A stretch of DNA of 64,000 nucleotides from Watersipora subatra. Lineage: Eukaryota; Bryozoa; Gymnolaemata; Cheilostomatida; Watersiporidae. The notes under the pieces are model-generated. The model saw nothing but the letters and a program-made list of their open reading frames with translations, was not told the origin of the DNA and did no database searches. The stretch is from NCBI RefSeq assembly GCF_963576615.1, contig NC_088711.1, positions 63,645,248-63,709,247 of the forward strand, read 5' to 3'. A program made the translations under genes and the position numbers. Shown here in pieces: positions 34,935 to 37,900 of the stretch (its first letter is position 1; each line of letters opens with the position of its first letter).

Positions 34935-37900
34935 TTATGTTTTACTGTTGCTAGAATTAACAAGTTTGTCCTTTCTAGGAGGCATTCTTTCATTAGACTT
35001 GTCTAAGCTCCGAGCCTCTTCAAAGCTCCCTATCTTGTGTGTAGGAGTGACACCGCTAAGGGCTGCAATAAATAAATAATTTATTTATTTGAAGTTTTAC
35101 AATTTCAATAATAAATTCTTTACTAATTAAAGACGGCGTAAGACTGCAATACACCGCCTGAAAAGATGCGATTGTTTCAGATGGACTGGACACACACAAA
35201 ATAATTAATCGGTTTAGCAAATACTTTACAACTTAAAGATTATGTGGATGCGATAAAATCTAAAACTTTCAATGGAGGTGGCCACTCGGCATGCAGTACT
35301 AAAAATGTAAACCACTACTGCCAATATACAAGTCGTCTGTAATCGCTGTCGATAAAGAATTTTTGCCAACATGGTAATAATCATAAAAATAATTCGTGAT
35401 AATAAAACATCAATTATCAATAATATTAAGGCATTGATGTATTTTTACTTGAGTCGTTTTGCTTATTGGAAATAGAGAGTTGGGTCAATTCAATTTATTT
35501 GTGAGTTGAGCTCTAAGGCTTGCTTGAGCAAGCATGTAAACTCACGTGTCCATCTCTAGTCATAAAAGGCACGCTAACTCTAGATATTCCTACATCATAT
35601 GACTTTTAACAATTATGTTGTAATCGTTATCCTCAACTAAGAGGGTGTCAAAAACAGGTCTATACACTTGTCGCAACGTTCCTCTTCACAGAAATCTTTA
35701 ATAAAAGGCGTATTTAAGTTAAAGCACAACAAAACATGTATGTTATGATTTAAACCTCCACATTAAAATCATAGCATGAGATTAATGCAGGAATAAAAAG
35801 GATTGGAACTGTTCTATCTATAGAGTGTTGAGTGAGCCCAATAATGGTCTTTCCACTTTAATATGCTAATACAAATCACCTGGTATGAAAACTGATGAAA
35901 CGAATGAATAAAGAGTTTTCTCTAAAAATCACGAGTGAGATAATGACAAGGGAGATAATGACAGAATGGAAAAGGAAACAAACCTGAGACCATTGTCTCT
36001 TTGCCCCCAGATAAAGCTCCGACAGGAAGCAGCCCATTCGGTGTAAGTCCTTTCAGCTCAAGAACTGTTTCGCTTTCTTCCCTGATAAAGTACATTTATT
36101 AGAGACACGTACAAACATTGAACCTATGTGATGAGTGTAAAGTAAGTACATTTACTAGAGACACATACAAACATTGAAACTGTGTGATGAGTGTCAAGTA
36201 AGTACATTTACCAGAAACACATACAAACATTGAACCTGTGTGATGAGTGTGAAGTAAGTACATTTACTAGAGACACGTACAAACATCGAACCTGTGTGAT
36301 GAGTGTGAAGTAAGTACATTTACTAGAGACACATACAAACATTGAAACTCTGTGATGAGTGTGAAGTAAGTACATTTACTAGAGACACGTACAAACATTG
36401 AACCTGTGTGATGAGTGTGAAGTAAGTACATTCACCAGAGAAACGTACGTACAACCTGTGTGATGAGTGTAACTAGTAAAGATACCATCTGCTTACACAT
36501 TCATGAGTCATGTTATGTGTCAAACGTACAGCTGCATGTCAGCCTATAGCACTCAAATAGCACCATATAGCACTTACATGGCAGCATAATTAATACAGTA
36601 ATGCAGTAAATCCCTATAAAAAGGCAATGTAAGAAGTGGGTACAACATCTCAGCAGGAAACAGAAAGCGGCAAATGGCTGGACTGGTAACATAAAGACCT
36701 GGTTGGGTCGCAATAAAATACCTTTACCAAACTCATTTGAGTAAAGTAAAGATATGAAGACGCACAATCAAAGTAAAGATATGAACACACATGACCACAG
36801 TTAAGACATGAACTCACAAGATCACAGTAAATATATAAACTCACCTGAGCACGGTAAAACTATGAGCTCATCTGATCGCAGTAAAGATATGAACTCACCT
36901 GATCACAGTAAAGATATGAACTCACCTGATCACAGTAAAGACATGAACTCACCTGATCACAGTAAAGACATGAACTCACCTGATCACAGTAAAGATATGA
37001 ACTCACCTGATCACAGTAAAGATATGAACTCACCTGATCACAGTAAAGATATGAACTCACCTGATCGCAGTAAAGATATGAACTCACCTGATCACAGTAA
37101 AGATATGAACTCACCTGATCACAGTAAAGACATGAACTCATCTGATCACAGTAAAGATATGAACTCATCTGATCACAGTAAAGATATGAACTTACCTGAG
37201 CACAGTAAAGATATGAATTCACCTGATCACAGTAAAGATATGAACTCACCTGATCACAGTAAAGACATGAACTCACCTGATCACAGAAAAGACATTAACT
37301 CACGTGATCAAAGTAAAGATATGAACTCACCTGAACACAGTAAAGATATGAACTCACCTGATCGCGGTAAAGACATGAACTCACCTGAGCACGGTAAAGA
37401 CACGGGCCATTTTTCCAATCGCTCTGATCTTATTCTTTATAACTTCCTTTCTCTCAGCAATAGTAGAGTCTACAACAAATAACATGCCTTTGAGCATACG
37501 GAGTTGTACTTCACTTGTTTGATCATGTTTAGCCCAGAGCGTAAAGTGAACGAGTTTTCCTAGTTCCAGAAAGTCACTGTTATCAAACAACAACACATAA
37601 TTGGCATCATTGCCTAGAGCAGCTTTCTCTTCAGCTTACATAGACAGCTCGTAGAAAAAACATTTCACCACAAATTTTGCAAAATATCTCGGGAATTGCC
37701 AACAAGTTTTATACAAGTATTCTATCACATTAATATGCTTAAAAATGATCAAGTACTCTACATACACCAAGAGAGCTAGTACCCTACATACACTGAGAGA
37801 GCTAGTAACCTACATACACTAAGAGTGCTAGTAACCTACATACACTAAGATAGCTAGTAACCTACATACACTAAGAGAGCTAGTAACCTACATACACTAA

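Follow-up and report, generated by a model that had tools for sequence, protein, structure and literature searches.

The window, a stretch of 64,000 nucleotides on contig C4 of a 784-Mb, animal-like eukaryotic genome, carries a calcineurin A gene on its minus strand, which was located by tblastn with a human PPP3CA sequence as query. The search returned 12 matches with an E value below 1; 11 of these are ordered exons with 41-98% identity, which together supply the catalytic core, the calmodulin (CaM)-binding helix and an intact, conserved autoinhibitory segment. The twelfth match (plus strand, 34146, E 0.69) was discarded as a chance hit. Exons are numbered here as in the original prediction, an earlier note on this DNA, and the coordinates of the principal features are collected in Table 1.

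Intron 10 consists of tandem arrays over most of its length, because the 27-bp minisatellite at its donor side is accompanied by a second, 56-bp array that stops only 6 nt before exon 11. The spacer between the two contains one short repeat detected by TRF (21 bp, 2.1 copies, 36545-36588). By eye, most units of the 56-bp array display a CACACAG motif resembling a decoy acceptor together with a branch-like motif, TCTAGTAA.

Table 1. Coordinates of the calcineurin A and PI4K type 2 features in the window (a slash marks a splice junction)
Feature	Position	Strand	Basis or remark
Last coding exon of calcineurin A: conserved autoinhibitory segment and stop	34935..35062	minus	tblastn
Exon 11, 98 nt: first part of the C-terminal inhibitory region	35984..36081	minus	sequence, tblastn
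Intron 10, 1303 bp, 82% tandem array	36082..37384	minus	
Second intron 10 minisatellite: 56-bp unit, 6.9 copies, without exon sequence	36088..36470	minus	TRF
Intron 10 spacer between the two main arrays	36471..36744	minus	sequence, TRF
27-bp donor-spanning minisatellite	36745..37402	minus	25 units in register; unit 1 exonic, 24 decoys
True donor GT: context CTCAG/GTGAGTTCA, phase 2 (AG/G TGA)	37383..37384	minus	sequence, translation
Exon 10, 84 nt: CaM-binding helix; acceptor ttgttgtag/ACTC	37385..37468	minus	tblastn, translation, sequence
59-bp unit, 2.6 copies, across the end of a PI4K type 2 exon, TATTCAAG/GTAGGT	59481..59635	plus	TRF, human sequence

A minisatellite built from the exon 10 donor

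TRF delimits the donor-side array at 36745-37400, with a period of 27, 24.3 copies, 89% matches and a score of 1004. Every unit combines 16-18 nt from the end of exon 10 with 9-11 nt from the start of intron 10. The exact donor CAG/GTGAGT is present in 14 of the 24 decoys (15 of 25 units with the true donor included) and CAG/GTAAGT in one further decoy, while GT at +1/+2 is kept in 19; the last units are degenerate. From -3 to +9 the consensus decoys are the same as the true donor. The units still encode VFTVLR or near variants of it (VFTAIR-stop, IFTVFR-stop), which points to the exon edge as the source of the array; the peptide VF(S/T)VLR at the end of exon 10 is common to human calcineurin.

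TRF, the register of the units and their VFTVLR-coding content confirm the original prediction that a 27-bp minisatellite was built from the exon 10 donor, and the count of exact matches agrees with its statement that most copies carry CAG/GTGAGT. Its figure of about 16 decoys corresponds to the AGGTRAG sites within the array, which number 16 with the true donor counted and hence include about 15 decoys. The span that it drew to 37469 contains the array and overshoots it, since the repeat ends at 37400-37402 and 37469 lies on the acceptor side of the exon.

In this one assembly the identical array was found at one place only. No homologous array was found elsewhere in the genome by a search that skips common words, which leaves the uniqueness of the array unproven. 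Two genome matches with 74% and 69% identity (L002 and L003) were rejected as chance matches to unrelated 25- and 28-bp minisatellites.

Consequences of decoy use

Intron 10 interrupts the frame in phase 2, so that the use of any decoy donor, as well as retention of the intron, places a stop codon directly after VLR. By translation, these products end in ...VFTVLR-stop without the autoinhibitory segment, as the original prediction had correctly deduced from the in-frame AGG TGA, and the full-length enzyme is in frame from the first, exonic donor only. Retention of this phase-2 intron, which starts with GTGAGT, would yield the identical truncated protein without any decoys. Arithmetically, a minimum of 121 nt separates the stop of every decoy product from the exon 11/12 junction downstream of it. 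The usual rule for nonsense-mediated decay (NMD) requires 50-55 nt, and the decoy mRNAs are therefore NMD candidates under this rule.

A natural rodent calcineurin, CnA-beta-FK, comes from an mRNA that retains intron 11 and meets a stop codon where exon 11 passes into this intron; the protein has no autoinhibitory domain and is reported to be constitutively active and weakly Ca-sensitive (PMC3056713). As at the locus described here, the stop falls at an exon-intron junction and is followed by a 98-bp exon, the counterpart being exon 11 with 98 nt. Since the next exon has this length in both, the array junction is probably the same junction as that of the CnA-beta-FK truncation, and the biochemical deduction of the original prediction is therefore sound. 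In contrast to the decoy products, CnA-beta-FK is made by intron retention, and the available portion of PMC3056713 does not mention a minisatellite.

Conservation of the decoys and the calcineurin A paralogue

No preferential conservation of the donor positions was found among the decoys in a positional test, whose power is small because the units are not independent of each other. Over all 24 decoys, the donor 9-mer has 2.11 variants per position versus 1.67 at the other 18 positions; over the first 19 decoys, the values are 0.78 and 0.83. Among the 27 circular windows, ranked from the most conserved (1), the donor window comes 21st with 24 decoys and 6th with the first 19. Estimates of RNA accessibility by local folding were all near zero and did not tell the true donor from the decoys.

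A second calcineurin A gene is located on C1 (C1:32096908-32124500; L067:1640-2164). It has the homologous phase-2 intron after VFTVLR, with the donor CTCAG/GTACCG. This intron lacks a donor array, and GTRAGT does not occur on its sense strand; its sole TRF array is a 28-bp repeat in mid-intron. Retention of the intron would also truncate the protein early (VLRYRP-stop). The array-free paralogue argues that the array is not ancestral to the control of calcineurin, unless the paralogue has lost it.

Donor-consensus arrays elsewhere in the genome

The PI4K type 2 array is an independent second case of a boundary-spanning repeat inside the same 64 kb. For a genome-wide survey, the donor pattern was defined as CAGGTGAGT occurring three times with gaps of 8-38 bp, and the reversed motif served as the control; the second-donor pattern was AAGGTAAGT, and the counts reported here rest on the CAGGTGAGT pattern. 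It matched 320 times (138 + 182), compared with 108 matches (14 + 94) for the reversed motif. Among the matches listed, which extend from C1 to C3:65.29 Mb, the donor pattern forms 19 separate arrays and the reversed motif 4 (one-sided binomial 0.0013, calculated by hand), with a control that is matched in base composition and not in dinucleotide composition.

From the 5' flanks, retrieved for each of the 19 arrays, 15 upstream frames were scanned against Pfam, the four frames under 20 aa being left out. Three of the 15 gave a match below 1e-5. A BTB_2 match (6.9e-15) extends to the residue directly preceding the first donor of its array, a topoisomerase zinc ribbon (2.5e-11) stops 14 residues before it and a GPR158/179 match (4.7e-6, 0.6 bits under the cut-off) stops 27 residues before it. 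The TOP3A-like and GPR158-like frames stay open into their arrays, and from the open frame together with the donor consensus we infer that the exon ends there in both cases. A search of solved structures retrieved topoisomerase 3-alpha for the TOP3A-like frame (L029, 4.2e-8) and no match for L034, L036 and L041. With 12 of the 15 scanned frames giving no Pfam match below 1e-5 (one, L033, resembles FAM76 at 0.013), an exon location is not established for most of the 19 arrays.

The length of the upstream open frame is a weak proof of exon position: at least 50 codons are open upstream of 7 of the 19 arrays, versus 18% of random positions and 5 of 16 ordinary AGGTRAGT sites in a 200-kb sample. 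Homology was for this reason taken as the test instead. The yardstick was a set of nine scanned frames from the same 16 AGGTRAGT sites, not all of them single since two share one frame inside an L015 array; one of the nine has a domain match, a RING finger at 5.4e-5 and under the cut-off. On these small numbers (3 of 15 versus 1 of 9), recognisable exons are not clearly more frequent at the arrays than at ordinary consensus sites.

Reading frame and consequence vary among the donor arrays, some of which stop at once while others stay open, and such differences between cases argue against one common purpose. At the TOP3A-like exon (L029, C1:69481600-69482500), an 18-bp donor array is open for several units, and use of its decoys would insert repeats into the protein.

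Repeat density at exon edges

Arrays with a period of at least 10 occupy 7.1% of 200 kb sampled at preset places on C1-C5. In the calcineurin A and PI4K type 2 genes of the window, they cover 18% of 18,449 intron bases, counted with approximate exon limits. Two of the 18 donors of these genes touch an array and two of the 18 acceptors lie no more than 25 nt from one, which is no more than the density of repeats in the introns predicts; an array at a donor is thus unsurprising in this genome. The 19-to-4 contrast suggests an excess of arrays at donors, whereas the window count does not.

The window holds further repeats. A 30-bp array at 43092-43259 (minus) stops roughly 18 nt short of a calcineurin exon; large minisatellites lie at 37758-38895 (26 bp, 44 copies), in the preceding calcineurin intron, and at 4641-7443 (20 bp, 140 copies). 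Units of 17 bp resembling CGCCACCTCTATTTGAA occur in both orientations at 23946-24059, 40071-40187 and L026:341-380 and perhaps represent a dispersed element. By eye, 43260-43440 is a long imperfect palindrome of MITE-like appearance, the open frames at 29768-33384 (plus) resemble a LINE with endonuclease and reverse transcriptase, and the open frame at 61967-63426 (minus) resembles a BEL/Pao-like polyprotein. Outside the window, the small contig L061 (C238:1-300) begins with (GACTTA)n, and the first 9 kb of the 17.6-kb contig C239 gave no match to COX1.

Discussion

We consider it quite likely that the calcineurin array is a tolerated minisatellite of the mirage type, expanded by ordinary turnover and not maintained for a function. 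Each unit joins real exon to real intron sequence and repeats the splice signals, which is how a mirage is defined structurally. The array is probably a side-product of a tandem-repeat-rich genome rather than a control device, and a regulatory role is unlikely to be the reason for its existence. It probably started from a short tandem duplication that arose by chance across the boundary between exon 10 and intron 10, and then expanded into the intron through ordinary minisatellite turnover, arrays of this sort being abundant in this genome; growth in this direction would have left the exonic first copy intact. Exon definition and the amphioxus cases suggest that splicing would proceed mainly from the first donor and discard the decoys together with the intron, and that an occasional use of decoys would give a ...VLR-stop mRNA mostly cleared by decay. 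For a preference for the first donor the sequence offers no reason beyond position, because the consensus decoys are identical to it throughout the donor region. The use of repeat donors in human IFI6 and the altered splicing reported for human boundary repeats count against the array being simply tolerated.

The original prediction had proposed that the decoys compete with the true donor and thereby set the share of Ca-independent enzyme without the autoinhibitory domain, like a rheostat tuned by copy number. This would fit 15 decoys with AGGTRAG that all give one truncated protein, a truncation at probably the same junction as in a natural constitutively active rodent isoform (PMC3056713), repeat donors that are usable in IFI6 (PMC4526556) and boundary repeats that alter splicing in human duplicated genes (PMC2812944). 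However, the decoys carry no signal of selection, the C1 paralogue lacks the array, intron retention alone makes the same protein and the decoy products are NMD candidates; in addition, similar arrays with other phases sit on other genes, arrays at exon edges occur at the rate set by repeat density and boundary repeats in amphioxus are reported to leave mRNAs unaltered (PMC3087553, PMC3902484). Control of the ratio of full-length to truncated enzyme is therefore not upheld, and we regard it as improbable. It is doubtful, too, that the array is noise with a cost, in which the decoys, or slow splicing of an intron that is 82% repeat, divert pre-mRNA to decay and mildly lower the output of this paralogue. 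The strength of the decoys, the position of the stop relative to the exon 11/12 junction in every decoy product, a second calcineurin A gene that could buffer the loss and the shifts in splicing that human boundary repeats can produce (PMC2812944) would agree with such a cost, but for the mirages of amphioxus the mRNAs are reported to be normal (PMC3087553, PMC3902484).

That the sites draw U1 snRNP to guard the intron against premature cleavage and polyadenylation, or serve as a sink for U1, is barely credible: about 15 strong U1-like sites lie within ~650 nt, but the homologous intron of the C1 paralogue contains no GTRAGT on its sense strand and no test performed here favours such a role. 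U1 is abundant, and its titration by one locus is unlikely. We give very little credence to the combined proposal that donors are preferred birthplaces of minisatellites and that the calcineurin array diverts splicing, with a length that sets the Ca-independent fraction and varies between individuals. Were it true, array length would determine how much Ca-independent phosphatase is made, and this fraction would differ among individuals.

The array adds a high-copy case, from an animal that is probably not an amphioxus, to the known boundary-spanning repeats, together with a genome that offers several more of them. With many identical donors standing in series, these arrays provide natural tests of the choice that the spliceosome makes. 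In calcineurin the outcome is easily read because the first donor alone preserves the autoinhibitory tail, and any slip to a copied donor would remove this self-inhibiting part of the enzyme.

Comparison with known boundary-spanning repeats

In amphioxus, tandem repeats across exon-intron boundaries have been termed mirages; the cases so named come from cephalochordates and comprise Adh3, the globins BflGb6/9 and troponin C, with similar repeats in PGBD5 (PMC3087553, PMC3902484). They are unstable in length, and regular splicing is reported to be undisturbed; the units of Adh3 measure 10-72 bp (PMC3087553, PMC3902484). Like the mirages, the calcineurin unit spans the boundary and duplicates splice signals beside the real site, and its copy number is higher, with 25 units compared with 3 and 6 reported for amphioxus BflGb6. 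The likeness is one of structure.

The donor minisatellite of human IFI6 (6-16) is said to have been described originally by Turri, Cuin and Porter in 1995. This gene is reported to produce three mRNAs through the use of two donors in its downstream repeats (PMC4526556). In IFI6 as in calcineurin, a minisatellite supplies multiple donors at an exon end, but in calcineurin every downstream donor leads to a stop. In human genes within segmental duplications, units of ~30 bp in ~4 copies are reported at exon-intron boundaries, the position that the calcineurin minisatellite also takes, along with 27 intron modifications; these repeats vary between recent paralogues and have been associated with alternative splicing as well as with new introns (PMC2812944). 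For a potato gene, a boundary-crossing duplication has been reported in connection with intron gain (PMC4974935). Judged by its units, the calcineurin array is an additional case of this known class, the boundary-spanning minisatellites.
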